22,907 bases of DNA from a virus, in IMG/VR virus record IMGVR_UViG_3300031236_000324, positions 1 to 22,907 of that record; one strand, given 5' to 3'. The position numbers and the translations under genes were made by a program. The notes under the pieces were generated by a model. That model was not told where the DNA came from and made no database searches. It was given only the letters and a program-made list of their open reading frames with translations. This document shows, piece after piece, positions 4,909-21,831 of this stretch; positions within the stretch are counted from its first letter, which is position 1; every line of letters starts with the position of its first letter.

Positions 4909-4949
4909 GAGTTGGTTTTCTCCTGCGGCTGGTTTGCCGCTCTAAAACC

Positions 4950-4978: not shown

Positions 4979-4996
4979 GCGAAAAGCGAATTAAAA

Positions 4997-5785: not shown

Positions 5786-5868
5786 GGCGAGCCTCCTTTC
5801 CTGGGCGATCAGCCTGATTGCGCCGGACGCGCCCAAGTAGGAAATCGACAGGTGACCGAAGGTCTCTT

Positions 5869-6641: not shown

Positions 6642-6644
6642 TTC

Positions 6645-7215: not shown

Positions 7216-7222
7216 TACTTCT

Positions 7223-7251
7223 ATTGTATGACGGCGCGCGTCATAGAGCAA
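7223..7251 (-). promoter_or_regulatory. higB-higA promoter with a perfect palindromic operator in the spacer
   Basis: On the minus strand TTGCTC (7246-7251) and TACAAT (7223-7228) are 17 bases apart. The spacer is almost entirely the palindrome ATGACGCGCGCCGTCAT (7228-7244), with exact 6-base arms, suited to a HigA dimer. The -10 ends 7 bases before the GTG start. The layout (TTGCTY, 17 bases, TACAxT, palindrome between, start codon right behind) is nearly the same as at brnT-brnA. Confidence 0.68.
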
Positions 7252-7269
7252 GGGAATTCAGGGAATTCA
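7252..7269. repeat. Tandem direct repeat GGGAATTCA x2
   Basis: Two exact adjacent copies of GGGAATTCA lie at 7252-7260 and 7261-7269, immediately upstream of the higB -35 box and between that promoter and the next glycosyltransferase start. It could be a duplication scar at the border of the toxin-antitoxin insert or simple slippage. Confidence 0.6.
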
Positions 7270-7289
7270 GCAAGGAAAAAGCGAATAAA

Positions 7290-7970: not shown

Positions 7971-8665
7971 CCGTCTTCGGCATACTGCGGATTAAGAACG
8001 AAGCGCGCTGGATCGAGCGCGTGATCCGCTCCCTTCAGCCGGTGTGCCACAAGATTCTGGTGCTCGACGATCACAGCGACGATGGGACGCCGGAGATCTG
8101 CGAGACGCTCGGCTGCGTGGTCTATCGCTCCCGGTTCAGCGGAATCTCGGAGGCTCGCGATAAAGACTGGCTGCTCGAAAAGGTATGGGAGGCCGGCGCC
8201 CAGGTGGGCGACTGGTGCTTGATGGTGGATGGCGACGAGGCCCTGCATCCGGACGACACACCGGCTTTGCTCGCAGCGGTCAACGGTGCGCATCCCTGCT
8301 GCTCGCTGCACATCGTCTATCTTTGGGATCGCGAGGATCAGGCGCGGGTGGACCGGATTTACAGGGAATTTCGCAGGCCCTCGCTGTTCCAGCTCATCCA
8401 GCGGGATCTGACGTTCCGGCGCACGTCCTGGGGCGGAGACTTTCACTGTTCGTCGGCTCCGGCGCAGTTGCTCGGAAGCATCACACCGATTGCGGTAAGG
8501 CTGCTGCATTACGGATATCTCTATGTCGAGGACCGCATCCGGAAGTACCAGTTCTACAACCGGGTGGACCCAGGGAATGAGTTTGAAGACTTCTACCGGC
8601 ATGTAGTGCAGGGAGATGTTCCAGAGGTTCCTGCCAAAGCAAAGTTAAGACATTGGAGCTGGTGA
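7967..8665 (+). CDS. Family 2 glycosyltransferase (TTG start)
   Basis: The start is TTG at 7967-7969, overlapping the previous stop as TTGA, with a G-rich stretch upstream; the longer frame from 7808 lies over the previous gene. The product is 232 residues. FGILRIKNEARWIERVIRSL is the opening of the GT2 subfamily with the NEa.~i~r~l~s pattern; ILVLDDHSDDGTPEI and WCLMVDGDEALHPDD, with DGDE at 88-91, form the nucleotide-sugar and metal sites. The C-terminal half, from LIQRDLTFRR to FYNRVDPGNEFEDFYRHVV, is the acceptor side. A hairpin repeat follows the stop after 17 bases. Confidence 0.86.
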   Translation: MTVFGILRIKNEARWIERVIRSLQPVCHKILVLDDHSDDGTPEICETLGCVVYRSRFSGISEARDKDWLLEKVWEAGAQVGDWCLMVDGDEALHPDDTPALLAAVNGAHPCCSLHIVYLWDREDQARVDRIYREFRRPSLFQLIQRDLTFRRTSWGGDFHCSSAPAQLLGSITPIAVRLLHYGYLYVEDRIRKYQFYNRVDPGNEFEDFYRHVVQGDVPEVPAKAKLRHWSW

Positions 8666-8682
8666 CACTGAGCTGAAGGATT

Positions 8683-8766
8683 TTGTGAGCTTCGCGGTAG
8701 TCAGGCGCTCGCGCTGCACGGCATGACTGAGCGACACTCCGGGGTCATTCAGCTTTTTGCGGGCGT
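8683..8766 (-). repeat. Intergenic repeat, hairpin type, copy A
   Basis: Read on the + strand it contains TTGTGAGCTTCGC (8683-8695), CGCTC (8706-8710), CGGCATGACTGAGCGA (8719-8734) and GGGGTCATTCAGCTTTTTGC extended by GGGCGT (8741-8766). The last 26 bases are identical to copy C at 20982-21007. CGCTC pairs with GAGCG, and an inner TGC pairs with GCA. Its reverse complement ends in GCGAAGCTCACAA, as do the leader-type copies. It lies 3' of both the + strand glycosyltransferase and the antisense coiled-coil gene, whose last codons fall inside it. Confidence 0.75.
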
Positions 8767-8970
8767 TTCAGGCAGCGCCTTAGCTGGCGAGGCCTGAATG
8801 CTGGCCAGAATCAGATCCAGCTTTTGCTCGAGCACATCCAGCCGTTTGCTGAATTGGGCGTACAACTGGAGCCCCCAGTCCATCTTGGGCGGAAAGCCGG
8901 GCGAAGCCGGATCCGGCAGTTGTGCTGCGGTCGTTTCTGCCTCTGCCGCTGCGATTTTTTCAGGTGCCAC
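8749..8970 (-). CDS. Small Ala/Pro-rich coiled-coil protein
   Basis: This 73-residue frame starts with GTG at 8968-8970. Its N-terminus is Ala/Pro/Glu-rich (MAPEKIAAAEAETTAAQLPD), its centre helical (MDWGLQLYAQFSKRLDVLEQ, then KLDLILASIQ) and its tail Pro/Lys-rich. It has no ribosome-binding site, but TAGACT lies 6 bases before the GTG, fitting a leaderless message; an alternative is an ATG at residue 30. The function is unknown. It is the antisense member of a gap between the last glycosyltransferase and the head-tail adaptor, and its final codons and stop are supplied by the hairpin repeat. Confidence 0.5.
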   Translation of the reverse strand: MAPEKIAAAEAETTAAQLPDPASPGFPPKMDWGLQLYAQFSKRLDVLEQKLDLILASIQASPAKALPETPAKS

Positions 8971-8976
8971 TTTTAA

Positions 8977-9006
8977 AGTCTACCCGACACCAAGCCACAA
9001 CAAGAA
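8977..9006 (-). promoter_or_regulatory. Possible leaderless promoter of the antisense coiled-coil gene
   Basis: TAGACT (8977-8982) lies 6 bases before the GTG start. Possible -35 boxes are TTCTTG (9001-9006) with an 18-base spacer or TTGTTG (8998-9003) with 15; neither is strong. The call rests mainly on the same -10-to-start distance as at the three toxin-antitoxin operons. Confidence 0.35.
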
Positions 9007-9018
9007 GCGCTTAAATCC

Positions 9019-9363
9019 ATGGACCCCTGGCCATCATTAGATCCCGGTGATCTGCGCAACCAGATCTCCATCCTCCAGCAGACGCAGTCCTCGGACGCCT
9101 CGGGGAACACGGTGGTCATGGCGCCCTTCGCCACAGCCTACGCCAAGATCGATCCTGTCCGTGGTACCGACGTGCTCAAGGCCGGCCAGGTGACCACGCA
9201 GGAATTCCTGGTCATCTCGATGTGGTACCAGCCGGGAATTCTCGCTGACATGCAGGTGCAGGCATTGAACGGCCTCTATGTCATCCAAGGCGTCGAGGAC
9301 CTTCTCGAGATGGATATTGTGCTGAAGCTGAACTGCCTGGCGATAGGTCGGAACGATGCTTGA
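9019..9363 (+). CDS. Phage head-tail adaptor (SPP1 gp16-like, head closure)
   Basis: This 114-residue protein has the adaptor layout: DPGDLRNQISILQQTQSSDASGNTV, in which 'LR.~I~i~~~~~~~d~~G~~v' is the family opening, then FATAYAKIDPVRGTDVLKAG, QEFLVISMWYQPGILADMQV and YVIQGVEDLLEMDIVLKL. Such proteins form the head-completion ring between connector and tail. It starts at the ATG at 9019 with only a weak AGAAG upstream. It overlaps the next gene by 8 bases, so the two are coupled. Confidence 0.88.
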   Translation: MDPWPSLDPGDLRNQISILQQTQSSDASGNTVVMAPFATAYAKIDPVRGTDVLKAGQVTTQEFLVISMWYQPGILADMQVQALNGLYVIQGVEDLLEMDIVLKLNCLAIGRNDA

Positions 9364-9760
9364 GCTCGGCATCAAAGACCTCGTGATGGCCAACGCCGGC
9401 GTGCTGGCGACCGCCGCGACCGGCGGCTTCCTGCTCTCCCTGCCCAAAGACACGGTGCTGCCGAGCTGGACCTACCGCTCGATCTCCGACGTCGGGAAGT
9501 ACGCGCTGCGGGGCGAGCACGGCTTTTTCACGCGGCGGCTGCAGATCGATTGCTATGCGAACCCGCTCAATCCGGGCCAAGTTATCACTCTGGCCAAGGC
9601 AATCGATAGTGTTCTGAGCGGCTACCAGGGAACGCTCACCGATCCGGATTCGACCATCGTGTACGGGTGCTTCCGTTCGGATGTGATCGACTTCTTCGAC
9701 GAAGCCGGCCGCACGTACCGGCGAATGCTTGAGTACGAGATTCAGTATTGCAGCGCCTGA
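9356..9760 (+). CDS. Tail terminator / tail completion protein (DUF3168-like)
   Basis: This 134-residue protein (LELGIKDLVMANAGVLATAA, then TVLPSWTYRSISDVGKYALRG, RRLQIDCYAN, AKAIDSVLSGYQGTL, then IDFFDEAGRTYRRMLEYEIQY) follows the DUF3168 pattern of gp17-like proteins that cap the tail tube and join it to the head. It overlaps the adaptor end and is followed by the tail tube gene after 56 bases. This is the usual place for the terminator. Confidence 0.85.
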   Translation: MLELGIKDLVMANAGVLATAATGGFLLSLPKDTVLPSWTYRSISDVGKYALRGEHGFFTRRLQIDCYANPLNPGQVITLAKAIDSVLSGYQGTLTDPDSTIVYGCFRSDVIDFFDEAGRTYRRMLEYEIQYCSA

Positions 9761-9816
9761 ACTCGCGCGTGAGTTCACCAACGAAAAACACCACACCAAA
9801 AAAGGAAACGACCAAA

Positions 9817-10284
9817 ATGCCAGTATATTTGCCAGTGACGGGAGCGCCAAGCGAGGCCAACAGCGGCTACGGCGCAGCCTTTTATATCGGGGATGAAGCG
9901 AGCCCGACCGGGTGAACCCTGGTCGCCGAAGTCGCTTCGATCAACAATAAGAACTTTTCGACCCCGGCCATCGATACAACCAATCTGCAATCTCCGGATG
10001 CGACTGAAGAAATGTTCCCTGGAATCAAAAAGCCGGGCACATTCGAAATAACCGGGAGCTACACCGGCGATCCCAGCCAGCTTCTTTTCGATACGCTCGC
10101 CAGTAGCCAGACGATTTTCCCGTTCAAGATGACGGCGGGGATGCAGAAGAACACCAAGACCGCGACCGTAACCGGGAATTGCTTCGTGACGGAGTCCGAG
10201 GACGGGCCGTATGAAGCGAACAAGAAGATCGACTTCAAAGTGACCTTCCAGAAAACCGGTCCGACCGTCGTAGTGATAGCGTAG
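9817..10284 (+). pseudogene. Major tail (tube) protein with an in-frame TGA at codon 33
   Basis: A strong ribosome-binding site (AAAGGAA, 8 bases before the ATG) starts a 155-codon frame that is continuous except for TGA at 9913-9915. Before it: MPVYLPVTGAPSEANSGYGA, AFYIGDEASPTG. After it, in the same frame: TLVAEVASINNKNFSTPAID, TTNLQSPDATEEMFPGIKKP, then FEITGSYTGDPSQLLFDTLA and the C-terminal EANKKIDFKVTFQKTGP. The whole reads as one tail tube subunit of the lambda gpV / Gp10-like class that forms the hollow tail shaft. TGG to TGA would be a one-base change, and a Trp fits the 'G-W-T-L-V-A-E-V' context. The internal ATG at 10012 would give only the last 90 residues. It may be a true nonsense mutation, a sequencing error, or readthrough. 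Confidence 0.8.
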
Positions 10285-10292
10285 CGTCGCCC

Positions 10293-10946
10293 ATGATCGC
10301 GCGCTGGTTTACCAGGCCGGTCGAACTGTGGGCCTGCGGCCGCAAGTGGCGCCTGCTGATCACGCACCGGGTGCTCCTCGTGATCGGGGAACTGACCGGT
10401 ATTGACGCCATGCGCGTGAGCCTGGCGCGGCCCTCCGCGCTCGTATTGCGCGCGGTCCTGTTCGCCGCGCTGCGCGAAGCGGGCGCCAGAATCTCGCTCG
10501 AAGAAGCCGGGGCCATGTTGCGGCCGGGGGTTATAGCGGGCATTCGCGCCGCGCTGGTCGAGACCTGGCAGGCATCGATGCCGGACCCGGAGCCGGAAGA
10601 TCGGGCAACCAAACGAAGCGCAGAACCTCCCCTTACCACGTTGGAGGCCTGGGCCACGGCGCGCCACGATCTCCGCCTCTCGGACGAAGAGTGGCTCTCG
10701 ATGACGCCGCGCATGCTCCATGCCTTGTCCCACCATCACCTCGAAAACATGCGCTGGAGCGAATTGATGATGGGCGTGCTGTGCGCGCACACCGTCAACC
10801 ACAGCTTCTGCGCTCCGAAGAAACCCACCAGCCCCCGATCCTACATGCTGCACCCCTGGCCCGAAAGCAATCAGCGCCGGCCGGTTTATGGCGAAACGCT
10901 CATCAGTATAGTCGCGGATGCACCCAAGAAACGTAAGGCGAAATGA
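10293..10946 (+). CDS. Tail assembly chaperone-like protein (two-part)
   Basis: This protein of 217 residues lies directly behind the tail tube gene. The first half (LWACGRKWRLLITHRVLLVI, then GELTGIDAMRV and LRPGVIAGIRAALVETWQ) and the second half (LEAWATARHDLRLSDEEWLS, then MTPRMLHALSHHHLENMRWS) look like the two parts of chaperone pairs that coat the tape measure protein, the role of lambda gpG and gpGT. Here both appear in one continuous frame, so no programmed shift is needed. The C-terminus (CAPKKPTSPRSYMLHPWPES) is Pro-rich. The call is from position and pattern and is less certain than the head genes. It overlaps the next gene as ATGA. Confidence 0.6.
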   Translation: MIARWFTRPVELWACGRKWRLLITHRVLLVIGELTGIDAMRVSLARPSALVLRAVLFAALREAGARISLEEAGAMLRPGVIAGIRAALVETWQASMPDPEPEDRATKRSAEPPLTTLEAWATARHDLRLSDEEWLSMTPRMLHALSHHHLENMRWSELMMGVLCAHTVNHSFCAPKKPTSPRSYMLHPWPESNQRRPVYGETLISIVADAPKKRKAK

Positions 10947-11284
10947 ATATGAAGACTTCCACCCTGACGATCGACGACAAGAAATATCTCCTGGCCTATG
11001 ATTTCAATTCCATTGCGGACGCAGAACCGGTTGCCGGATGCAACCTCTTCGCGGCGCTTCAAAATCTGAATGGCATCAGTTGCGCCCAATTGCGGGGACT
11101 GCTCTACGCGGCCATCGTGGTGACGCCACCGGATCCGCCGCCGACGCTGGCGCAGGTGGGAGATCTGGTCCGGCTCGATACCATCGAGACCGTTACCCTC
11201 GCTCTTGCCGAAGCGTACCAGTTGTCGATGCGGGAGCCCGCGGACCCGCCGGCGGCCGAACCGCCGGCCGCCCCCAATCCTTGA
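10943..11284 (+). CDS. Tail assembly chaperone (GTA TAC-like)
   Basis: This 113-residue protein has the small TAC pattern: STLTIDDKKYLLAYDFNSIADAE, in which 'l.idgk.~.l.ydfnal...E' is typical, then CAQLRGLLYAAIVV, PPTLAQVGDLVRLDTIETVT and a Pro/Ala-rich tail (PADPPAAEPPAAPNP). TAC proteins bind the tape measure protein before the tube polymerises. The ATG overlaps the upstream stop as ATGA, so the two chaperone-like genes are coupled. Two such proteins in tandem are unusual; one could serve as the shorter, gpG-like partner. Confidence 0.68.
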   Translation: MNMKTSTLTIDDKKYLLAYDFNSIADAEPVAGCNLFAALQNLNGISCAQLRGLLYAAIVVTPPDPPPTLAQVGDLVRLDTIETVTLALAEAYQLSMREPADPPAAEPPAAPNP

Positions 11285-11303
11285 CGCAGATCAAAGCGGC
11301 AAA

Positions 11304-11789
11304 ATGGCTGACGATTTCGCTATCGACGTGACCGGCCTGCAGGAGATGGCCGACAAGGTTCGGGCTCTTCCCGAGAGCCTGGCCCGTGGTGCGTTCGCGC
11401 TCGGCTTCGTTCACGCGGCAGCCGTTCTGGCGCCGGCGCTCACCTCCGCTTGCCCAGACCGGGCCGAAGGCTCGCGCGACGAGAATAGCAAGCATCTGGC
11501 CGACTGTATCGGTACGGAGATCGCCATCAATCGGGATGGCACGGGAGGCCGCCTGTGGATCGGCTTTACAGGCAACATCGGCAATATCAAGGCCAGTGAC
11601 ATCGCCCTCTGGCTCGAATACGGCCACAGAATCGTTGGCCACGCGCCCAATTATGTCTCCAAGGGCAAGGTCGTGGCACCCTTTCCCTTCATCCGCGCCG
11701 CCTGGGATCAGTCAATTGACGAAGCCGTGCAGGCTTTCGTCGACACGGTAAACGCAGCTCTGCCGGAAGCTCTCGAGAAGGCGGCTTAG
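11304..11789 (+). CDS. HK97 gp10-like tail component
   Basis: The ATG at 11304 starts a 161-residue protein; the frame is open to 11205 but overlaps the previous gene. IDVTGLQEMADKVRALPESL is the opening of the HK97 gp10 family ('v.Gl.el...l..lp..~..'), and IALWLEYGHRIVG is the central 'a~~vEfGt' motif, followed by PFIRAAWDQSIDEAVQAF. These proteins take part in head-tail joining or tail completion. In most HK97-like phages the gene lies between adaptor and terminator; here it lies after the chaperones and before the tape measure gene, an order change. Confidence 0.8.
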   Translation: MADDFAIDVTGLQEMADKVRALPESLARGAFALGFVHAAAVLAPALTSACPDRAEGSRDENSKHLADCIGTEIAINRDGTGGRLWIGFTGNIGNIKASDIALWLEYGHRIVGHAPNYVSKGKVVAPFPFIRAAWDQSIDEAVQAFVDTVNAALPEALEKAA

Positions 11790-11856
11790 GAACCTACCCA
11801 CATGCCCAAAGCATCGCTGTTATTGAGGGCCAGCACGGCCCACTGCGCAGAAGAAC

Positions 11857-11970
11857 TTGGGGGACCTGGCGGTCAAGATCACCGTGGTCGGCAAGGCGGG
11901 CAAAGCTGCCGGCGCCCAGGCGGCCTCGGGAATTCGCCTGGATAAGCTCCAGCTCGCACACGGCAATCAG
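11857..11970 (+). pseudogene. Probable N-terminal piece of the tape measure gene, out of frame
   Basis: Frame 1 gives LGDLAVKITVVGKAGKAAGA followed by QAASGIRLDKLQ and stops at TGA 11971-11973. 'DLAVKITV.GkagkAAGA..A' is how many tape measure proteins begin, and the downstream frame (SSSHTAISEMQATTAAVRVL when read back before the ATG at 11975) continues the same theme. One extra base near 11950-11960 would explain the split. An ATG at 11802 lies in yet another frame, so the real start is not resolved. Confidence 0.4.
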
Positions 11971-11974
11971 TGAG

Positions 11975-14767
11975 ATGCAGGCCACCACCGCCGCCGTGCG
12001 CGTCCTGGAAGGCGGCGTGACGAACAACCTGCGCGCCGTGGAGCGGTTCGCCGCGGGGACGCTGAAGCTCGGCCCGATCCTGAAGGCGGCCTTTCCACTG
12101 GTAGGCGGGCTCGCCTTCGCCGGGCTCATCGTGGGGATGGGCGAAAAGGTTTACGAGTTCTTCAAGAAGGCGTCCGAAGGTCCGGCGCGCATCGCTAACG
12201 CATTCCGCGAGTTGAACGCTCCTCTGAAGCTCACCAACGATGAGCTGCGCGTCGCCAATGACCGGCTGACGAACGATATTGCCAAGCTCGAAGGACGGCG
12301 TCAGAACACGCTGCAGACGGCATTGGATGAGGCGCGCGTCGCGGCCGACAAGTTGGCCGACTCCCTCGAAAAGGACCTCAAGGGCCTCAATAAGCTGCTG
12401 AAGGAAGAGAACGTCAACGCCCTGCACGGCTTCGTCACGGACCAAGCCCCCACCACCGCGCTCCGGGAGCAGCTCGGCGGAAAGACCGGATTCGGAGGGT
12501 TCACTGGGGAAGTCGCGGACATCACCGACAAGGGGCAGGCGAAGATCGACGATGCAGCCAGGAGGGGCGACAAGAAGGGACAGGATGCCGCGGTCATCGA
12601 GCTGAGCACGGCGCTCGAAAAGAAATACGGCGATGAGATCGCCATCACCACTGCGAAGCTCGCCGAATTCCAGAAGCTGCAGCTTGCGCACCAGGGTGCC
12701 AATCCCCTTTTGCGGGCAGTCGATCCCGCGCTAGACGATCAGAGCGCCAATATCGAATTGGCGAAAGGCGCCCTCAGGACTCTCCGCGATGAGCAGGAGC
12801 GCGTCCGACTGAGTGCGCAAAATACTACCCTGACTCAGCGTAAAGACGCCGACACTGCGGCGAATGCCAACGCCAAGCAGGACCGCCCGCTGCAAGACAA
12901 GCTGAAGGAACTGGACGCCCAGCTCACCAAGGCCGCGGCCAAACTTGGCGCCGCCGGCAAGAGCGCGGCGGAGCAGGAGGCATTGAAGGCCAGCGCGGCG
13001 GCCGTCAAAGCCATCGAGGAAGTAAACAAGGCGCTCGAACGCCAGCATACGAAACTGGATGCGGCAGGAGAGGCAGCGATCCGGCTGCGCGAGAAGTCCA
13101 TCGCCCTGGTGACTGCGGAGGCTGACTGGAAGACCAAGCTGGCCGCGACTACCAACGAGATAGAAGACCGCATCAAGTCGCAGAAGCTCCTTACCGCCGC
13201 AATTGGCCAGGGCTATGAAGCGACGAAAAAGGCCAACGCCGAAACAGCGGTGATGGGCTTCGCGAAGGAGCACTATAACGATCCCCAGTGGATGAAAGAC
13301 CATGCCGGCGACGTGGCGGGCGTGCGGACCCTGGCCGGCAATGAGTTCGACGCGAAGAATGCGGAGCAGACTGCGACGGCCCTCGAAAAACTGACGGATC
13401 AGATCGCCCTCGAAAAGAAGCTGGCCACCGTTCAGTCTCAGGGCGAGGAGGCGGTACGCCTGGCCACCCTGGCAATGAAGCTCCAGGAGATCGCCCGGCA
13501 CAAGGGCGCCGACGCCGCGAAGAAACTGACACAGGCGGAGCAGGATCTCTTTGCCGCGCAGCGCGCCAACACCTCGGCCAAAAATATTGCGGAGCTGAAC
13601 ATCGAGATCGATGCCACGCGGCGCCTGGCTGCGGCCCAGATCCAGGGCGCAGAGGCGGTCCGGCAGACCGAGATCAAGCTGCAGGCCGAAAAGATGGGAC
13701 GCGCGGGCGCCACGCCGCAGGAGATTTCGCTAAGTGGGCAGGAAGACGAGTTGAAGCATCAAGCGGCTATCACTGCGGAAGTTCTGAAGACCGCCAATGC
13801 CGGCCGTAACCGCCTGGCTGAACTCGATAAGGAGGAAGCCGCGGCGCTCAAACTGAAGAACACGGACGCGGACCAGCTCGGCGTCCAGATCAAACTCCGG
13901 GACATCGAGAATGAGCGGCTGAAGATTGAGGCGCAGCAGCTCCTCCAGTTCGGAGGGATCAGCGATGGAGTGAAGGCATTCTTTCTCGAGATGGAGGAGT
14001 CCGCTAAAAGCGCGGCATCGATCATTTATGACGCGCTGAATTCAACATTCGACAAGCTCTCCGAGAACCTGGCCAAGCTTGCCACGGGCGGCAAGGCCCA
14101 CTTCGCCGCAATGTTCAAGGACATCGGCCAGCAGATGGTGCAATCTACCGTCAAATCGAACCTCCAGAAAGGACTGGCGGCGTTTGGAAATAGCCCGCTC
14201 GGGAAAAAGCTCGGCCTCGCAGGTTTGGGGAACAAGAAGGATGGTCAAACAGTTTCCAGCGCGTTGTTCGTTCAGGTCGTACGGGGGACGGCCGCGCCCG
14301 GTGGGACGGGGGCTGGCCCCGCGGCCGCGCTAGGGCAACTCGGCAGTATGGTTGGATCCCAGGGCTCCGGAGTGTCTGGCCTCTTTAGCAAGGCGCTCAA
14401 ATTTCTCGGCCCGCTGCTTGGAGGGCTCGGAGGCGGGGGTGGCGACGGACTTACTCCCAGCGTCACATCGAGCTTCACGCCTCTCGCCGGCGGCGGTGAT
14501 ATGTCCGCGGACAAGGCATACGTTGTTGGCGAGAAGGGGCCAGAGATTCTCCGCAAGACGTCAGGGACGATCACGAGCAATGCGCAATCCCGCAAGCTGC
14601 TGAGCCAGTCTGGCGGGAATCACTACTACTCGATCGATGCGCGGGGAACCGATCCCGTGCTTACCGAACAGAGAACCAGAATGGCGATCATGGCAGCCCA
14701 TAATTCAGCAGTGTCCACAGGGGTGCAGGTGCAACAAGAGCATTTGAAGCGGACACCGCACGGGTAA
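11975..14767 (+). CDS. Tail tape measure protein
   Basis: This protein of 930 residues from the ATG at 11975 is the longest in the window. A hydrophobic segment (LGPILKAAFPLVGGLAFAGL, then IVGMG) lies at about residues 32-55, followed by some 600 residues of Ala/Lys/Glu/Gln-rich coiled coil. A Gly-rich region follows, and then the tape-measure ending GGGDMSADKAYVVGEKGPEI. The length would set the tail at roughly 140 nm by the lambda rule of about 0.15 nm per residue. No ribosome-binding site is seen before this ATG, and the true N-terminus probably lies upstream in another frame. The gene follows the chaperones and gp10-like gene, as expected. Confidence 0.9.
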   Translation: MQATTAAVRVLEGGVTNNLRAVERFAAGTLKLGPILKAAFPLVGGLAFAGLIVGMGEKVYEFFKKASEGPARIANAFRELNAPLKLTNDELRVANDRLTNDIAKLEGRRQNTLQTALDEARVAADKLADSLEKDLKGLNKLLKEENVNALHGFVTDQAPTTALREQLGGKTGFGGFTGEVADITDKGQAKIDDAARRGDKKGQDAAVIELSTALEKKYGDEIAITTAKLAEFQKLQLAHQGANPLLRAVDPALDDQSANIELAKGALRTLRDEQERVRLSAQNTTLTQRKDADTAANANAKQDRPLQDKLKELDAQLTKAAAKLGAAGKSAAEQEALKASAAAVKAIEEVNKALERQHTKLDAAGEAAIRLREKSIALVTAEADWKTKLAATTNEIEDRIKSQKLLTAAIGQGYEATKKANAETAVMGFAKEHYNDPQWMKDHAGDVAGVRTLAGNEFDAKNAEQTATALEKLTDQIALEKKLATVQSQGEEAVRLATLAMKLQEIARHKGADAAKKLTQAEQDLFAAQRANTSAKNIAELNIEIDATRRLAAAQIQGAEAVRQTEIKLQAEKMGRAGATPQEISLSGQEDELKHQAAITAEVLKTANAGRNRLAELDKEEAAALKLKNTDADQLGVQIKLRDIENERLKIEAQQLLQFGGISDGVKAFFLEMEESAKSAASIIYDALNSTFDKLSENLAKLATGGKAHFAAMFKDIGQQMVQSTVKSNLQKGLAAFGNSPLGKKLGLAGLGNKKDGQTVSSALFVQVVRGTAAPGGTGAGPAAALGQLGSMVGSQGSGVSGLFSKALKFLGPLLGGLGGGGGDGLTPSVTSSFTPLAGGGDMSADKAYVVGEKGPEILRKTSGTITSNAQSRKLLSQSGGNHYYSIDARGTDPVLTEQRTRMAIMAAHNSAVSTGVQVQQEHLKRTPHG

Positions 14768-14796
14768 GAAATCCGCACAACATCACCACGTTTCCT

Positions 14797-14844
14797 CAGT
14801 CATAGGCGCGGCGCGAACGGTTGACCGCCGCGAAGCTCACAACA
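14797..14844 (+). repeat. Intergenic repeat, leader type, copy 2 (5' of distal tail gene)
   Basis: CAGTCAT (14797-14803), 26 bases containing GGCGCGAACGGTTGACC, then GCGAAGCTCACAACA (14830-14844), ending 2 bases before the ATG of the next gene. The last 15 bases are identical to the copy at 957-1003. There is no separate ribosome-binding site here, so the element itself forms the translation leader. Confidence 0.65.
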
Positions 14845-14846
14845 CC

Positions 14847-15470
14847 ATGTTTCCCACTTTCAACGGCTGGACCATCATCCCGATGCCTGCGGCACCTCCC
14901 GCTCCAGCCACGATGGAGTTTACTGCCCTGGATACGGTAGCCGTGAGCATCTCTCCCTTTACCGGCCAGCAGCAGGTGCAGGACTGGCAGGCCTCTTTCA
15001 TGGAGGCCTCCGTCTCTATGCCCGCACTCACTCCAGCGCAAGCGCCGGCATGGATCGCATTCCTGATGGCATGCCGCGGCCAGGCCAACGTCTTTCAGCT
15101 CGGGGATCCGCTCGCCGTCAAGCCACAGGGCTCCGGACTGGGAACGCCGCTGGTCGACGGCGCCGGCCAGACCGGATACTCGATCGCGCTCAAAGGCTGG
15201 ACCCCCTCGGCGGCCGGCGTGCTCCTTCCCGGCGACTGGATCCAGATCGGCTACCGCATCTATCGGACACTCGTGGCAGCAACCGCGGATGGCACGGGAC
15301 GGCTGGTGTTGAACGTCTGGCCGCAGCTCCGCGAGTCACCCGCGGATAGCGCCGTCGTTATCCTGAACAACACGCAAGGGCTCTGGCGCCTGAAAGAGAA
15401 CGCACGCAAGTGGTCGCTCACCGCGTCCCGGACCTACGGTATGCAGTTTGAAATCATCGAGGCGCTCTGA
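14847..15470 (+). CDS. Distal/minor tail protein (tail tip, Dit-like by position)
   Basis: This 207-residue protein has the segments FNGWTIIPMPAAPPAPATME, AVSISPFTGQQQVQDWQAS, ASVSMPALTPAQAPAWIAFL, ANVFQLGDPLAV, LLPGDWIQIGYRIYRTL and ARKWSLTASRTYGMQFEIIE. The pattern is one I associate with the first minor tail gene behind the tape measure in phages of soil bacteria; no catalytic motif is visible. By position it should be the distal tail protein joining tube and tip. The start overlaps no other gene but directly abuts a leader-type repeat. It is coupled to the next gene by a 1-base TGATG overlap. Confidence 0.65.
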   Translation: MFPTFNGWTIIPMPAAPPAPATMEFTALDTVAVSISPFTGQQQVQDWQASFMEASVSMPALTPAQAPAWIAFLMACRGQANVFQLGDPLAVKPQGSGLGTPLVDGAGQTGYSIALKGWTPSAAGVLLPGDWIQIGYRIYRTLVAATADGTGRLVLNVWPQLRESPADSAVVILNNTQGLWRLKENARKWSLTASRTYGMQFEIIEAL

Positions 15471-16054
15471 TGCCGCGCAACATGACGGTTGCCTATCTCG
15501 CTGCGATTGTCAGCCGGGATTTGAAGCCGGCGCTGTTCATCGAGGCCAACTTCACCTCGGGACCCGTTTATATCTGGAGCGGCTTCGGTCCGATCACCTG
15601 GAACGGCCAGGTATGGACCGGCCTCGGATCGCTCGTTGGTGTCTCGACGATCGAAGAAGCCTCCGCTGTAAGCGCCAAGGGAATCACGCTTTCTCTCAGC
15701 GGCATCGACGTTACCCTGCTCACCGGCATCCTGGATGAATTTCAGCTCGGGCTGCCGGCGGTTGTCTCGCTGGGACTCTTCGATGCGACGGGCGTCACAC
15801 TTATCGCGAGCCCGGTTACCAGCTTCGCCGGCAGGATGGACCAGCCCACTCTCGACGTGAGCGGGACAAAGGCGACCATCTCGGTCAACTGCGAAAGCCG
15901 GCTGGTTGATATGAACACGTCGGTCGAAAGAAGGTATACGGATGAAGACCAGCAGCTCGATTATCCGGGGGATCTCGGCATGTCGTTTGTGAACGGCATA
16001 CAGGAGACGCAGATCTACTGGGGCCGGACGCCTTCGTCGAAGAATAACATTTGA
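15470..16054 (+). CDS. Minor tail tip protein
   Basis: This 194-residue protein starts in a TGATG overlap, with GAGG about 8 bases upstream. Typical stretches are PALFIEANFTSGPVYIWSGF, GPITWNGQVWTGLGSLVGVS, IEEASAVSAKGITLSLSGID, FAGRMDQPTLDVSGTKATIS and NCESRLVDMNTSVERRYT. This is the beta-rich tip protein that often precedes a peptidase-like gene and the hub gene (the lambda L/K/J region in role, not in sequence). The ending YWGRTPSSKNNI is complete, so the gene appears intact. Confidence 0.68.
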   Translation: MPRNMTVAYLAAIVSRDLKPALFIEANFTSGPVYIWSGFGPITWNGQVWTGLGSLVGVSTIEEASAVSAKGITLSLSGIDVTLLTGILDEFQLGLPAVVSLGLFDATGVTLIASPVTSFAGRMDQPTLDVSGTKATISVNCESRLVDMNTSVERRYTDEDQQLDYPGDLGMSFVNGIQETQIYWGRTPSSKNNI

Positions 16055-16482
16055 CCCGCCTGCCCGACTGGCAATCCCGGCTCAACACTTTCCTGTTGGC
16101 GCACCAAAGCGAGCCCTTCCGTTACGGCCGCTTTGATTGCTGCCTCTTCGTGTGCGAAGCCATCTCGGTGATGACCGGCGTGGATCCGGCCGCCGGCTTC
16201 CGTGAAACTTACTCCTCGCGCGCCGGGGCCCGCCGCGCCCTGGTCTCGTATTGCGGGACGGCTTCCGTCCGGGCGTTCGCCGAAGCTTTCACTGCGAAGT
16301 ACGGAATGCGGGAGAGCGCCACGGTTCTGCACGCGCAACGAGGCGACGCGGCACTGATCGAACGCAGCCGCGACTATTCGCTGGGCCTCATCGCACTGAA
16401 CGGCCGCGAGATCGTAGTCGCGTCTTCACTGGGGCTCTCGATGGCGCCGCTCTCTTCGGCCGTGCGCTCCTGGCACGTGTAA
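16051..16482 (+). CDS. NlpC/P60-like tail protein (DUF6950 type)
   Basis: The start is TTG at 16051-16053, overlapping the previous stop as TTGA. The product is 143 residues. PFRYGRFDCCLFVCEAISVM contains the conserved 'pf.wG..DCclf' cysteine region, followed by DPAAGFRETYSSRAGARRAL, then RGDAALIERSRDYSLGLIAL and the C-terminal LSSAVRSWHV. The family is a small relative of NlpC/P60 cysteine peptidases found in tail tips; it may cut peptidoglycan at DNA entry or be a structural remnant. The place between tip and hub genes equals lambda K. A clear catalytic His is hard to point to. Confidence 0.72.
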   Translation: MTRLPDWQSRLNTFLLAHQSEPFRYGRFDCCLFVCEAISVMTGVDPAAGFRETYSSRAGARRALVSYCGTASVRAFAEAFTAKYGMRESATVLHAQRGDAALIERSRDYSLGLIALNGREIVVASSLGLSMAPLSSAVRSWHV

Positions 16483-16488
16483 ACACCA

Positions 16489-18057
16489 ATGTCGAAATTC
16501 GTAGGAATCATCTCGGGCGCGCTCATGATCGCGGCCGGCCTGGTTCTGGAGTTCCTCACCTTCGGGATATCCACGCCTCTGACCGTGTTCCTCATCACGG
16601 CCGGCGCCGGCATGGTGATCAGCGGCATCGGCACGGCGCTGCAAAAGGGGCCTCTCAAAGGGGCCAGCACGGCGTCGCGCAACCCGATCAAGGCCTGGGA
16701 CATCATCGTCGGCTGGGTCAAGACTGGCGGAACGGTCGTCTATGTGTCGGAGTTCGATAACAACGACAAGTATCTCGACCTGGTGTTCGTGCTCGCGGCG
16801 CACGTCTGCCAGAGCGTCGATTCGCTGCTCTTCGATGGCCAGCGCATCACCATGGACCCCACCGGGACCAGCTACCAGCCGCTGCAGCAGACCGTCAACA
16901 TATCGGCCATCTCGCGCGCCAACAATGTCGTCACGGTGGTCCTGGAGGCCAACATCCCGACGCTCCAGGTCGGAGACAACATCATTATCCAAGGGATCAG
17001 CGGCGACTATACACTGAACGGCACCTATCCAGTGGAGACCATCATCAGCCAGATACCCGCGCCTCCGACAGGAGGGCCTGGAAGCCTGTCGTTCTCATAT
17101 CTCTGTGGCGGGTTGCCCTCCATCGTGGATAACGAGGGCCAGGCGATGACTACCTGGGCCAACTATGGCAAGCACGTGTTCATGGAGGTGCTGCTGGGAA
17201 ATCAGACCGCGACTTTCCCCGGCATGCTGAACGGCACGCCCAACGAGGGCGATGTTACCGATCTGATCCAGACTCCGACAGCCAACCCATGGACAGCCGA
17301 CTGTGTGCTGTATGGAAAGACGTGCGTCCACCTGCGGCTGAACTATGACGACAATTACTTCGCGCAGGGTCTGCCGGCAATCAGTTTCCTGGTGCATGGC
17401 AAGTGCGATATTTCGGATCCGCGCACCAGCCCTCCTACCATCGGCTACACCGAAAATGTAGCGCTGGTCATTGCCGACTATCTGACGAACACGACCTGGG
17501 GATTCAAGGCCGTGCTCGGAACCGAGGTGCCGATCCCGGAGCTGATCGCAGCGGCCAATATCTGCGACGAAGCGGTGGCGCTGGCCGCGGGAGGCACCGA
17601 ACCGCGCTATTCGTGCAACGGCACTTTTTCGCTTTCCATGAAACGCGGCGAGGTGCTGCAGAACCTTCTGACGGCGTGCGGCGGCCGGATTACTTATTGC
17701 GGCGGACAGTTCGTCATCTATCCGGCGGCCTGGCCGGGCGTATCGTTTCTGCTGGGGCCGCCTACTGGAATCCCCGTTCCGATTGCCAGCGCGGTTCTTT
17801 CGGTGGTCTCTTCCTTCACGCAGGGATCCGGGTACCAGGCGTATGTGAACTTTTCGATTGGCAGCCAGTCAAAATGGCTGTTTGATAATAATCCCGCCGG
17901 CTGGGCGATCCGCACCGACACGGTTGGGTTGAACACTGCCGATATCCTGGCGATCCAAAACGGTACCGGAAATGTGACCTACGATATCGAGAATTCGATG
18001 CTCGGCACAGCGACGCCGGCCGCCCAGTTGCTCATTTACGATACTGGCTGGATGTGA
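16489..18057 (+). CDS. Tail tip hub / central fibre protein (J-like), N-terminal part
   Basis: This frame of 522 residues ends at TGA 18055-18057. It starts with a hydrophobic double segment (GALMIAAGLVLEFLTFGIST, then PLTVFLITAGAGMVISGIG), which is common at the start of hub proteins that sit at the tail tip. It then has the beta-rich body, with NPIKAWDIIVGWVKTGGTVV, DKYLDLVFVLAAHVCQSVDS, TADCVLYGKTCVHLRLNYDD, GKCDISDPRT, ADYLTNTTWGF and CNGTFSLSMKRGEVLQNLLT. These are the hallmarks of baseplate-hub/J proteins that open the host envelope. The sequence clearly continues in another frame after 18050, so the stop is probably not the natural end. Confidence 0.85.
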   Translation: MSKFVGIISGALMIAAGLVLEFLTFGISTPLTVFLITAGAGMVISGIGTALQKGPLKGASTASRNPIKAWDIIVGWVKTGGTVVYVSEFDNNDKYLDLVFVLAAHVCQSVDSLLFDGQRITMDPTGTSYQPLQQTVNISAISRANNVVTVVLEANIPTLQVGDNIIIQGISGDYTLNGTYPVETIISQIPAPPTGGPGSLSFSYLCGGLPSIVDNEGQAMTTWANYGKHVFMEVLLGNQTATFPGMLNGTPNEGDVTDLIQTPTANPWTADCVLYGKTCVHLRLNYDDNYFAQGLPAISFLVHGKCDISDPRTSPPTIGYTENVALVIADYLTNTTWGFKAVLGTEVPIPELIAAANICDEAVALAAGGTEPRYSCNGTFSLSMKRGEVLQNLLTACGGRITYCGGQFVIYPAAWPGVSFLLGPPTGIPVPIASAVLSVVSSFTQGSGYQAYVNFSIGSQSKWLFDNNPAGWAIRTDTVGLNTADILAIQNGTGNVTYDIENSMLGTATPAAQLLIYDTGWM

Positions 18058-18836
18058 CCTTCGCGGATGGATCAACGCAGGTCTGGCGGGCCAACACGGT
18101 GAACGCTGTGCCCGGCGTGCTCCCAGGGGTCATTCTGAATCCGGGTAACGCGATCGACGGCGACCCTACGACGTACGCCACCATCGAGATGGCCGGCTTC
18201 ACTATATTCGATAGCGGCCCTGTGCTCGAGACGGGTGCCTATGCGCCGGTCGACATTGTGGCGAGTCCGCCCGATTCGAGTCCACCCGAGGTGGCTTCCA
18301 CCGGAACGGCGCTCTCGCAGGCGGCCGGCCCCTTCAAGTGGCGCCCGACGGTTTCCATCCGCGATCTGTTCAACGGCTGCAAGGGGACCTACGTCTGTCC
18401 CTCGAACAAATGGCAGCCGAGCGACATTCCGCCTTACGCGCAGGACACCGACCACGGCTATGCGAGCGGAGGCGGGTCCCCGTTTGCGCTGTATCCGTTT
18501 GGCGACGCCAATCTGTTTGCGGATGGAGGCGACCGCCGCTGGCTCGACATTCAGCTTCCGTTCACGATTTCCTCTTCGATGGCCCAACGGCTCTGCAAGA
18601 TCGAACTGATGCGCAGGCGCCAGCAGGGGACCGGAACGTTCTCATATAACATGGCGCTCTATCAGGCCACGGCCCTCGACGTGTTTCAGATGACGCTGCT
18701 CGAGATCTCGGCGTTTCGCTTCAAGCTGGATAAAGCCCAAAATCCCGGCGGCGGCGAAGTGACCTGCTCGGTACCGAGATCGACGTGCAGGAAACCGATC
18801 CCTCCGTTTATGACTGGTCGACCACCGAAGAGTTGA
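18054..18836 (+). CDS. Tail tip hub protein, second segment (after a -1 shift)
   Basis: This frame begins exactly at the stop of the first hub segment (GTGA overlap) and continues its theme: VTFADGSTQVWRANTVNAVP, WRPTVSIRDLFNGCKGTYVC, LPFTISSSMAQRLCKIELMR and GTFSYNMALYQATALDVFQM, all usual in the C-terminal half of one hub protein. An added base (TGG ATG read as TGG GAT G) would join it as W-D-V-T-F. The last 25 residues (from about VTCSVPRSTC) are out of frame; the real continuation is in frame 2 from 18761. Separate translation as its own gene is possible because of the GTGA overlap, but a break in one gene is more likely. Confidence 0.7.
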   Translation: MTFADGSTQVWRANTVNAVPGVLPGVILNPGNAIDGDPTTYATIEMAGFTIFDSGPVLETGAYAPVDIVASPPDSSPPEVASTGTALSQAAGPFKWRPTVSIRDLFNGCKGTYVCPSNKWQPSDIPPYAQDTDHGYASGGGSPFALYPFGDANLFADGGDRRWLDIQLPFTISSSMAQRLCKIELMRRRQQGTGTFSYNMALYQATALDVFQMTLLEISAFRFKLDKAQNPGGGEVTCSVPRSTCRKPIPPFMTGRPPKS

Positions 18837-18916
18837 CTTCGGAGGGCTATCAACAGGCGGCACTGCCTTCGAACGTCGGGACCTTGGACGATCTCTATAC
18901 GGTGAATGGGCAATAA
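18761..18916 (+). pseudogene. C-terminal piece of the hub protein (after a second -1 shift)
   Basis: Frame 2 from 18761 reads DLLGTEIDVQETDPSVYDWS, then TTEELTSEGYQQAALPSNVG and TLDDLYTVNGQ, ending at TAA 18914-18916, directly before the next ATG. 'l.~~E~d.svydW.t.ee' is the usual end of these hub proteins. Restoring one C (ACCTG to ACCCTG) would read V-T-L-L-G-T-E and join this piece to the segment before it. Confidence 0.65.
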
Positions 18917-19411
18917 ATGGCTGTCCGTAACTTCGATAACTCGGATCCGCCGGCGCCCGCCGGAGCGACGAACTGTCTCTGGCAACTCGACGCGGATTCC
19001 GATCCGCAGAACATTTCCTCCTACCTGCCGCTGTTCGTTGGAGACGACGACCCGTCCAGTCCCTTGGCTGCTCCGGAGGCTGGGGCTGTTCCCGCGCCCG
19101 CGGTAGGAGATGCGGCGTTAGGGAAGTTCCTATCCGCAAATGGCACATGGGAAATTCCCTCTGGAGCTGGAGGTGCCATTCCTCAACGCGAGGCGCCGGC
19201 CGGAATACTGAACGGAGTGAACACGATCTTTACTCTCAGCTTCGTGCCGAATCCGGTTGATTCGCTGCTCTTGCTGCTGAATGGAGTGGCGCAGAATCCG
19301 GGCTCGGGATCGCCGATTTCAGGAGCGGATTATTCGATCAGCGGAGTGACCATTACTTTCACAGTGGCACCAGTTGCAAGTGACTGGATGATGGCCTTCT
19401 ACACCCACTGA
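18917..19411 (+). CDS. Tail tip/fibre accessory protein with C-terminal beta domain
   Basis: This 164-residue protein starts at an ATG that directly follows the TAA of the hub gene. The N-terminal third is acidic (NFDNSDPPAPAGATNCLWQL, DADSDPQNISSYLPLFVGDD). It is followed by DAALGKFLSANGTWEIPSGAG, a typical fibre linker, and then the domain NGVNTIFTLSFVPNPVDSLL, LLLNGVAQNPGSG, DYSISGVTITFTVAPVASDW, MMAFYTH. That 'NGvN.~FtlsftPnp~~sl.l~lNG..q..g.dYtisg.titf~~aP..gd.l.a.Y' module is common in phage tail and fibre proteins and is probably a receptor-binding or trimer-forming beta sandwich. A hairpin repeat follows. Confidence 0.7.
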   Translation: MAVRNFDNSDPPAPAGATNCLWQLDADSDPQNISSYLPLFVGDDDPSSPLAAPEAGAVPAPAVGDAALGKFLSANGTWEIPSGAGGAIPQREAPAGILNGVNTIFTLSFVPNPVDSLLLLLNGVAQNPGSGSPISGADYSISGVTITFTVAPVASDWMMAFYTH

Positions 19412-19423
19412 GTCAGTTTGTTT

Positions 19424-19493
19424 TTGTGAGCCTCGTTGCGTTCTGCCGCTCCCATGCACGGCATGACTGAGCGATAGCGCGGGGTCCTTCGAG
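19424..19493 (-). repeat. Intergenic repeat, hairpin type, copy B
   Basis: On the + strand it holds TTGTGAGCCTCG (19424-19435), CGCTC (19447-19451), CATGCACGGCATG with exact 5-base arms around ACG, CGGCATGACTGAGCGA (19459-19474) and GGGGTCCTTCGAG (19481-19493). The two nested stems CGCTC/GAGCG and CATGC/GCATG are the best formed of the three copies. It lies between two + strand fibre-region genes; no antisense gene is seen here. Confidence 0.72.
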
Positions 19494-19508
19494 TTCTTAC
19501 GTAGAGAT

Positions 19509-20912
19509 ATGCCCACTTTGATCAGTCCGAACAACATGACGGCGGACAATGCTCCGTCGCCGTATGTCGCCTCAGCTTTGAGTGAATCCGTCCCAGCGTT
19601 CCAGGCCTTCGACGGCAATACCACTTCGAGCGGCTGGTACGGCAACGTGGGCGGCGTGACCTGGCTGCAGATCGATCTGGGCAGCGCGCAGTCGGTCGGG
19701 TCCTACGCCATTTCCTATGGCATTTCCGGATACGCCAACGCTTCGGCGCCGAACTCCTGGACGATGCAGGGCTCCGCCGACGGCAGCACCTGGGTGACGG
19801 TAGACACGCAGACGGGCCAGGTCTTTACTAATCCGCAAACCCTTACCTACACCGTGGCGGCTCCCGTGTCCTACCGTTATTGGCGGCTGAATATCACCGC
19901 CAACAATGGCGATGCGACGTACACCGGGCTGGGCGAGCTGCTGCTCTATGCAGTAGTAATTGGCACGACCCCGCAAACGATCACCTTTCCCGCGATCAGC
20001 GGCCCCGCTCTCGCGGCCACCGCAAGCTCCGGGCTGACAGTTTCCTATGCGGTGACCTCGGGTCCCGCCACGGTCTCCGGCAGTACACTATCGATCACCG
20101 GCGCTGGAACCATCGTCGTCCAGGCGACACAGCCCGGAAACGGAACGTATGCAGCGGCCGCTCCGGTAAGCCAGTCACTGGCGGTGCTCGATATCGTCCC
20201 CCACACTTTCACCACCGATACCAGTGATCCTCCTTGGGTGATCTCGGCATCCACCGAGCTTGGCGGGTATCAGGGCTGGGAAGCTTTCAACGCGGCGGGC
20301 TCGAATTCCTGGGCGGGGACCAATAGCGGCGTGGACTGGCTCCAGGTGGATACAGGAGCGGGTAATGCCTATGTGCTGTTCGCTTATGCCTTGACAGTGG
20401 GAAACGGCGGCGCGGGCAGCTGCCCCAAAAGCTGGACTTTTGAAGGCAGCAACGACGGCGCGACCTGGGTGACGCTCGATTCCCAGCCCGGCCCCTGGTC
20501 GAATGCAGGGCCGAATCCGGGCGGCAAGGCTTGGGGTAATGGAATGCCGCTGACTCCATTTCCCATCGCTTCGCCGGGGATTGGCTATCGCTATTTCCGC
20601 CTGAACGTCACGGCCAATAATGGCAGCGCTGACACGGAGGTGGATCGGATCTATCTGTACGGCATCGGTTATGTCGCTCCTACCCCGACGCCCAACACGC
20701 AGCGCGGCAATATCGCTTTCGATCAGATCAAGGGCACGGATCGCACGGGGAATGGGGATCAACTTCTCACGTACTCGACGGCTCCAGCGCATTCGAACAG
20801 CACGGGCGCGGCTGGGCAGATCGCATTCGATGGCTCGGGAAATTGGTATTGGTGTTTCGCGGCGAATCTGTGGGCGCGCATCGGGCCTGGAGGATTCAGC
20901 GCGTCGTGGTAA
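19509..20912 (+). CDS. Tail fibre / receptor-binding protein with two discoidin (F5/8 type C) domains
   Basis: This protein of 467 residues has four parts. Domain 1 (about 1-152) has [60 protein letters not shown] and [20 protein letters not shown], the discoidin/CBM32-like jelly roll that binds sugars. An Ig-like linker (about 153-228; [20 protein letters not shown]) follows. Domain 2 (about 229-395) repeats the plan ([60 protein letters not shown]). The C-terminal 70 residues end in [20 protein letters not shown]. It is very likely the glycan-binding fibre. Start: the ATG at 19509, with only a weak ribosome-binding site. Repeats lie on both sides, so it looks like an exchangeable cassette. 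Confidence 0.83.
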
Positions 20913-20924
20913 CCCGGTTTTTGG

Positions 20925-21007
20925 TTTGTGGCTCCGATGCGTTCTGGCGCTCGCGTGCGCGGCATGACTGAGCGAGGGTGCGGGGTCATTCAGCTTTTTG
21001 CGGGCGT
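20925..21007 (-). repeat. Intergenic repeat, hairpin type, copy C
   Basis: On the + strand it holds TTTGTGGCTCCG (20925-20936), CGCTC (20949-20953), CGGCATGACTGAGCGA (20960-20975) and GGGGTCATTCAGCTTTTTGC extended by GGGCGT (20982-21007). The last 26 bases equal copy A. Stems CGCTC/GAGCG and CGTGC/GCATG (one G-T pair) are kept, although the arm sequence differs from copy B. It lies 3' of both the + strand fibre gene and the antisense DUF5615 gene. Confidence 0.75.
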
Positions 21008-21012
21008 GGTGG

Positions 21013-21342
21013 TCATGGTTCCCACGGAATCTCGACCGCGGTGTAGCTTCCGGGCGTGGCCGCGTTCACGGCGCCGGAAATCCTGTCGAGATATGCCTGT
21101 ACAACCGGCCATTGTGGATTACCGAGAACGACGAGCGCGATTTTCCGGCCTGAGAGGTTCTGCTGGTACCGGATATTTTTGTCGGTGCTGAGAAGCACTT
21201 CATACCCGGCTTCCTCCGCCCGTTGAATCAGTTCGCCGTTTGACAGCTCGTGCCAGCCAATCCGGCGCGCATACGTCACTTCGTGTCCAGCCAGAAAGCG
21301 AGCAATCGGCCTCGGAGTGCCGTTATCGAAGAGGATCTTCAT
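21013..21342 (-). CDS. DUF5615 PIN-like toxin (putative RNase)
   Basis: The ATG at 21340-21342, in a 1-base TGATG overlap with the antitoxin stop, gives 109 residues. KILFDNGTPRPIARFLAGHE is the DUF5615 opening with the first acidic residue of the PIN-like site, followed by VTYARRIGWHELSNGELIQR, YEVLLSTDKNIRYQQNLSGR with the second Asp, and KIALVVLGNPQWPVVQAYLD. DUF5615 proteins are encoded with DUF433 partners as toxin-antitoxin pairs, the toxin presumably an RNase. It is the third such pair in the window, again antisense to virion genes, here between fibre and tailspike genes. A hairpin repeat lies 3' of it. Confidence 0.83.
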   Translation of the reverse strand: MKILFDNGTPRPIARFLAGHEVTYARRIGWHELSNGELIQRAEEAGYEVLLSTDKNIRYQQNLSGRKIALVVLGNPQWPVVQAYLDRISGAVNAATPGSYTAVEIPWEP

Positions 21343-21575
21343 CAAGCGAAGGTGGGGGCCTTCTCCAGGCTCTCGCTGGCAAAGTGCAGCACGGCTTTTA
21401 CTTCCTCCGGCGTCACGTCGAAAACTTCCGTGATCTCGTCGAGCGACATCCCGGCCTCAAGATTCTGAAAGACCGTCTGGACTGGCATGCGCGTGCCCTT
21501 GAAGACCCAAGCGCCGCTGACCTTGCCGGGTATGCTTTCCACCGCCGGGCATTGCGACCAGTCGAGATCGGGCAT
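21342..21575 (-). CDS. DUF433 antitoxin
   Basis: This 77-residue protein has the DUF433 pattern: GKVSGAWVFKGTRMPVQTVF, then QNLEAGMSLDEITEVFDVTP and EEVKAVLHFASESLE. The 'P.~~~G.p~~~GTR~pV..v~~~l..G.s.dei.~~fp.lt.e.v.aal.ya' plan is a small winged or helix-turn-helix domain that binds the DUF5615 toxin and probably the promoter. The ATG at 21573-21575 has a -10-like CATACT only 6 bases upstream and no ribosome-binding site, again suggesting a leaderless message. It is the first gene of the pair, antitoxin first, the reverse of brnT-brnA and higB-higA. Confidence 0.85.
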   Translation of the reverse strand: MPDLDWSQCPAVESIPGKVSGAWVFKGTRMPVQTVFQNLEAGMSLDEITEVFDVTPEEVKAVLHFASESLEKAPTFA

Positions 21576-21696: not shown

Positions 21697-21766
21697 GGAA
21701 CACTGGCAAGACCCTAGCCTTTACCCCCTCCAGGCAAAGGAACTCCATCGGCCGGGCACTGGCGCA

Positions 21767-21811
21767 CGGTCATGACGTTTGACGCGCGATTGTGATGCCG
21801 CGAAGCCACGG
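21767..21811 (+). repeat. Intergenic repeat, leader type, copy 3 (5' of tailspike gene)
   Basis: CGGTCAT (21767-21773), 26 bases containing GACGCGCGATTG (shared exactly with the first copy), then GCGAAGCCACGG (21800-21811), followed at once by the ribosome-binding site AAGG before the ATG at 21822. This copy is the most diverged at both ends. GTCATGAC inside it is a perfect 8-base palindrome. Confidence 0.55.
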
Positions 21812-21831
21812 AAGGCCCTTTATGAAAGGCA

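Follow-up and report, generated by a model that had tools for sequence, protein, structure and literature searches.

Copies of a variable DNA repeat of about 95 bp lie at gene junctions of the virus record IMGVR_UViG_3300031236_000324 (positions 1 to 22,907; the whole stretch of 22,907 nucleotides is hereafter called the window), which is linear and probably a fragment of a phage genome. Three of these copies (A, B and C; Table 1) had been noticed earlier. Based on the distribution of the repeat in the window and in other phage contigs, we propose that the copies are DNA borders, and that what they delimit are moron-like cassettes inserted where one core phage gene meets the next, a reading to which we assign a probability of about 0.58. 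Among the roles offered by the original prediction, that of a sequence shared by cassette borders was the one supported by our analysis: the copies mark gene junctions, form facing pairs with accessory genes between them, are present in phages that are unrelated and have a mosaic look.

A variable repeat family in unrelated phages

The 16-mer CGGCATGACTGAGCGA occurs exactly at positions 8719-8734, 19459-19474 and 20960-20975, and at no other site of the window even when three mismatches are allowed. In 100 dinucleotide shuffles the mean was 0.46 matches and the largest number 2, with none at 3, which places the three exact copies beyond chance. The 26-base identity claimed for copies A (8741-8766) and C (20982-21007) is exact as well, and ungapped identity over 68 nt was 79% between B and C and 62% between A and B. 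The gene contexts were also as claimed: A and C lie 3' of a + strand gene, where it meets the 3' end of a − strand gene, and B, in the tail-fibre region, has a + strand gene on either side. The three-copy description was correct but incomplete, since profile searches add − strand copies at 1003-913, 14846-14767 and 21814-21726.

An exact scan of viral contigs yielded three true loci (L004, L010 and L012) amid chance matches; exact 16-mer matches in L005-L009, L011, L013 and L014 were set aside as chance, the remainder of the element being absent there. With a profile of five copies, divergent members came to light at 14844-14791 of the window (E 3.5e-5) and in L010 (E 2e-4), and looser pattern scans contributed L135, L170, L226 and L227. 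The iterated profile search gave 69 matches at E<0.01 in eight virus contigs, and the reversed sequence of the same eight contigs gave 0. At E<1e-3, there were 6 in the window, which thus carries at least six in both orientations, 15 in G001 (30 kb), 9 in L135 (9 kb), 4 in L012, 6 in G006 (63 kb), 3 in L226, 2 in L016 and 22 in G307 (85 kb). All contigs are metagenomic fragments, and the gene calls are based on open reading frames (ORFs).

The family occurs in several unrelated phage lineages. Since L012 shares an overlap of 1317 bp with L016 at 99% identity, and that between L016 and the window is at 99.8%, these three represent one phage, and two loci are therefore counted twice among the eight contigs. 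G006 is a distant relative of the window, in the terminase region; G001, L135/L226 and G307 have no proteins in common with the window, apart from a weak match to a repeat-rich fibre protein in G307. A search of 178 other loci (2.1 Mb in total, with element-free relatives among them) returned just short, weak, partial matches, and the search of cultured phages returned no real match.

The contig L226 ends at TTAGTC (4246-4260), the opening sequence of many borders, which suggests that the repeats break assemblies.

Anatomy and placement at gene junctions

The alignment of 52 copies revealed an asymmetric element. Its outer end reads TTTTGGGGCTTCG or TTTGTGAGCTTCG, and this is followed by a second block, GTTCnGnCGCTC or TCAATCGCGCG, a third block, CACGGCATGACTGAGCGA, ATGGCTCTTCAGCG, ATCGGGGAACTGGAGACCG and others, of which the 16-mer is one variant, and an inner end, CTTCCGCTGGTAGAGATGGGT, CTTCTTGCGTAGAGATGGGT, CTTTTTGCGGGCGT or CTACCGCAGGCCCGG. 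A protein-coding reading of the element was dropped because, in the alignment inspected by eye, its indels are not in multiples of three and no frame is conserved.

When ORFs of 100 amino acids (aa) or more are considered, the outer end lies at most 20 nt from a stop or first start in 39 of 68 copies, where 3.5 were expected and the maximum in 1000 draws was 13; the inner end is found at such a stop or start in 5 of 68. Copies that follow a stop (L) and copies that precede a start (R) are unlike in the second block (Fisher p 4e-6). Among 35 neighbouring pairs less than 1.5 kb apart, 21 were facing, 8 diverging and 6 tandem. The facing L/R pairs constitute terminal inverted repeats with the common outer end TTTTGGGGCTTCG, imperfect and made of two subtypes. 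Between facing copies lie inserts of 14–938 bp, some of which carry antisense genes, and pairs with 14–16 bp between the copies, i.e., empty pairs, are present in G001 (7320-7515) and L135 (5461-5653).

Filled and near-empty junctions

Comparison with element-free relatives, with junction gaps taken from the printed sequence, revealed that the portal–protease junction measures 14–42 nt in the relatives versus 699 nt in the window, where it holds BrnTA, and that the junction between the tape-measure gene and the next gene measures 3–13 nt versus 79 nt. The DNA between portal and protease in the window is thus absent between the same genes of relatives, as is characteristic of a moron. The homologous contigs L135 and L226 (77–79% DNA identity) also differ at one site, the portal–scaffold junction: in L226 a facing pair surrounds a 76-aa antisense ORF, and in L135 there are an extra 263-aa gene and different borders.

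The cargo ORFs are mutually unrelated and mostly without a Pfam match. In the window, copy C and the border that faces it bracket the DUF5615/DUF433 pair, and no left border was detectable for the BrnTA cassette. When distances were compared between the two halves of the element, their correlation was 0.37, against 0.56 (standard deviation 0.04) for random column splits, which suggests mosaic exchange.

Outside the window, a tRNA-Met (CAT) is located in L135 (8018-8091) directly downstream of an L-type border (7910-7996), and the insert beyond this border may carry the tRNA. On the − strand of L244 (3479-3593), a tRNA match in Rfam extends over 115 bases, for a model of 71, with no ARAGORN call, possibly a tRNA with an insertion.

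Proposed mechanism

The outer end (TTTTGGGGCTTCG or TTTGTGAGCTTCG) abuts the stop of the upstream core gene in L copies or, in R copies, the region where the downstream core gene starts. L and R copies are imperfect inverted repeats that point towards each other, and the insert between them is either empty (14–16 bp) or holds one or two small genes, often antisense to the core genes. Part of the cargo promoter probably comes from the R inner end (GTAGAGATGGGT, followed by TAnnnT), and the inner end of some L types supplies the last codons of the cargo. The six bases after the R inner end GATGGGT often fit TAnnnT, which, as read by eye, is a candidate −10-like motif; in L135 and L226, the cargo ATG lies within ~10 bases of the R inner end and TAnnnT. 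A moron has a promoter and a terminator of its own around the ORF; here the candidate −10-like motif was seen after the R inner end, and neither a sigma-70-like promoter nor a terminator at the copies came out of the scans around A, B and C.

Cassettes would be gained, lost and exchanged at these borders. They could be moved by a so far unseen transposase or recombinase that works on the ends, or by homologous recombination between borders. For exchange among copies, homologous recombination is slightly more likely; it is also the least complicated route and is consistent with the mosaic signal. The exact placement would be better explained by an unseen recombinase that uses the outer ends.

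Tentatively, and with the odds somewhat against it, the borders may define a class of non-autonomous mobile cassettes with long asymmetric inverted-repeat ends, precise insertion at stops and starts within structural operons, spread among unrelated phages, and interchangeable antisense cargo including toxin–antitoxin pairs. Such a class, if true, would represent a direct mechanism of moron acquisition. It is an old question how accessory genes, such as morons and toxin–antitoxin pairs, enter tight phage operons without breaking them; this entry becomes testable with a recognisable family of borders whose ends are exact, which comes in empty and filled forms and which some relatives lack, and the border ends could guide the search for accessory genes carried by phages that infect uncultured soil bacteria.

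Points against cassette borders and alternative explanations

Several observations weigh against cassette borders. Cargo homology between units was not found, nor was the same cassette directly observed at two sites. Related full-length copies at different sites, as expected of an insertion sequence or a miniature inverted-repeat transposable element, were not detected, the inserts being unrelated between units. There was no target-site duplication of fixed length or position (flanks share on average 4.3 bases versus 3.9 for shuffled partners), and no enzyme acting on the borders was identified. Copy B and the copy at 14767-14847 are single and without cargo, while two accessory loci of the window, HigBA at 6645-7251 and an ORF at 4714-4908, lack detectable borders. 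The scan around copies A, B and C yielded no sigma-70-like promoter. The E-values of family members are optimistic, because members served for retraining the profile; the low correlation between half-elements could instead reflect different constraints, and the placement at starts and stops could also stem from a regulatory role.

The foremost alternative is indeed such a role, fixed and regulatory. Here the copies would be promoters, or DNA or RNA sites at starts and stops, that serve the core genes, and the cargo would be incidental. The tight placement, the conserved blocks and the −10-like motif at the inner end would suit this explanation, for which the SAS/ESAS repeats (PMC3203893) and the HF2 repeats (PMC8707807) provide precedents. 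However, the −10-like motif is directed into the insert, away from the core gene, and the same operons work in element-free relatives with junctions of 3–42 nt. The HF2 repeats are positionally fixed within their genus, whereas L135 and L226 differ at one junction. We consider a fixed regulatory role unlikely.

The repeats could also belong to a bacterial host and have been acquired by its phages, given that they are variable, dispersed, mostly intergenic and present in unrelated phages that possibly share hosts. With patterns that were strict and a true host that may be unsampled, the searches returned one isolated, chance-like match in 300 Sulfopaludibacter-related genomes, none in 300 relatives of a second acidobacterial bin, and 0 matches of the inner-end pattern in 257 Gb. 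That isolated match was the only one given by model R1 and the patterns across 201, 300 and 300 acidobacterial genomes; the model search of the 201 genomes was weak, as only 20 candidates were scored per genome. We consider this origin improbable. For the lineage of the window, and that lineage alone, an acidobacterial host is likely because relatives of its head protein, at 50–61% identity, are located in genomes of Acidobacteriota such as Candidatus Sulfopaludibacter (61%), Edaphobacter and Granulicella.

We also considered an RNA bridge, in which the L and R outer ends pair in the core transcript, loop out the insert and keep stop and start close, so that translational coupling is kept. The copies do face each other as inverted repeats, and the predicted fold pairs the outer ends in six of eight short units; however, such a fold is expected of any inverted repeat, own partners (−22.8) did not differ significantly from shuffled partners (−21.4; 186/2000), and the single copies B and 14767-14847 have no partner. 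An RNA bridge is quite improbable.

Hardly credible, finally, is the suggestion of the original prediction that each copy may be a structured RNA, a cruciform or a bidirectional terminator. The three window copies have a possible CGCTC/GAGCG stem in common, and one L135 copy folds well (z −3.3), but, of ten copies folded singly, the other nine did not surpass their shuffles. Across 25 copies, the stems proposed earlier had 62.8% of cells paired versus 62.7% in shuffled columns, i.e., they break as often as expected by chance, with no excess of covariation and fewer double changes than in shuffles; pairing that was said to be largely kept between the copies therefore fails across the wider family. 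RNAalifold returned no consensus structure for 25 mixed, 42 L-like or 24 R-like copies, with both strands analyzed for the subtypes, and Rfam gave no match above the gathering score, nor in permissive mode at copy A. Selection for pairing, whether in RNA or in a cruciform, is thus unsupported. As for a bidirectional 3' end signal, one weak terminator candidate lies near but outside copy A and none at B or C, which does not exceed the shuffle level. The common blocks of the element look like conserved DNA sequence, not folded RNA.

Comparison with known systems

The element fits a known kind, namely dispersed phage intergenic repeats that border moron-like insertions, and in the open literature we found no known system that combines this size with the L/R asymmetry, the precise placement at junctions and a distribution over unrelated phages. 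The T4-type PeSL mobile regulatory cassettes, as reportedly described by Arbiol et al. in 2010, are dispersed and intergenic, have a stem-loop and an early promoter, and were reportedly proposed to couple a promoter with the shuffling of accessory genes by recombination. In contrast to PeSL, the family of the window lacks a conserved stem-loop according to the stem test and RNAalifold, and its borders form facing L/R pairs. Integron attC sites are folding palindromes with GTTRRRY/RYYYAAC ends, and their cassettes lie in the same orientation; attC was rejected as a candidate, as the element does not fold, its pairs are mostly facing and those ends were not seen in the alignment.

The nearest precedent is YungJamal gene 60 of the Cluster O mycobacteriophages, a leftward gene located at a junction and flanked by imperfect 24-bp repeats, which are inverted according to the legend and direct according to the text; relatives have a single repeat and no gene (PMC4351075). 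The likeness is that the gene sits at a junction, runs leftward where the tail genes around it run rightward, and has imperfect repeats on its flanks. The YungJamal repeats are 24 bp long and occupy one locus (PMC4351075), whereas the family of the window measures ~95 bp and has two subtypes, tens of copies and several lineages.

The SAS/ESAS of Cluster K mycobacteriophages comprise 13 bp plus 17-bp inverted repeats, in one orientation, only upstream of starts and at non-structural genes (PMC3203893). Like the element, they are repeats linked to start codons, absent from the host genome and of a function not established (PMC3203893); unlike them, the element is ~95 bp long, also follows stops and lies in structural operons. 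The SAS/ESAS sequence GGGATAGGAGCCC, found upstream of starts, is in no block of the 52-copy alignment. The intergenic repeats of halovirus HF2 (58 and 29 bp) have positions conserved in the genus and promoter activity; they resemble the element in their blocks of conserved bases, but no facing-pair cassettes are described for HF2 (PMC8707807). The mycobacteriophage elements MPME1/2 are likewise very small, phage-borne and bounded by inverted repeats, but they form one conserved unit of 439 bp that has an ORF of its own and comes with 6 bp added at the target (PMC3029335), whereas in the family of the window the cargo changes from unit to unit and the ends are variable.

Features of the window

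The window encodes a major head protein (phrog_10) and a tape-measure protein (phrog_24). The borders and the associated genes are listed in Table 1.

Table 1. Repeat copies and associated genes in the window
Feature	Position	Strand	Remarks
BrnA antitoxin, cargo by the 913-1006 border	322-579	−	PF14384, E 4e-12
BrnT toxin, same cassette as BrnA	576-848	−	PF04365, E 2e-25
R-type border	913-1006	−	Between BrnT and protease gene (start 1016); inner end CAGAGATGGGTTAGAGT
Copy A, L-type border	8678-8767	+	After stop 8665 of glycosyltransferase-like gene; inner end GCGGGCGT; five-copy profile E ~1e-23
73-aa ORF	8749-8970	−	Last codons (...TPAKS stop) within inner end of copy A; no Pfam match
Possible R-type outer-end remnant TTGTGGCTTGGTGTCGG	8980-9001	−	Before gene start 9019; by eye, below search threshold
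Single R-position border	14767-14847	−	Fills gap between tape-measure stop 14767 and next start 14847; first five-copy model E 3.5e-5
Copy B, L-type border	19419-19510	+	After stop 19411; inner end TACGTAGAGATATG enters fibre gene start 19509; without cargo
Copy C, L-type border	20922-21008	+	After fibre gene stop 20912; inner end GCGGGCGT
Cargo: DUF5615/PIN-like, probable toxin	21013-21342	−	PF18480, 26 bits (cut-off 23.8); PF18478 slightly below cut-off
Cargo: DUF433, probable antitoxin	21342-21575	−	PF04255, E 5e-15
R-type border facing copy C	21726-21814	−	Before fibre gene start 21832; TCACAATCGCGCG block; 39 bits after retraining, E 5 with first model

Of the two accessory loci without detectable borders, both lie on the − strand between + strand genes. 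The first is the HigA/HigB-like pair, with matches to the Pfam families HTH_3 and PF05015; the second is the 64-aa ORF, which has no Pfam match and TATACT-like bases upstream. In the region 4997-8665, the order of the head–tail connector and two glycosyltransferase genes is unlike that of relatives, the glycosyltransferases coming first in L018, L025, L033 and L171. Positions 1-12037 of L015 are 99.4% identical to positions 1234-13219 of the window, with L015 being ~51 bases longer, apparently through one gap. The second fibre gene contains a 118-bp direct repeat (22201-22498) whose units are 75% identical.

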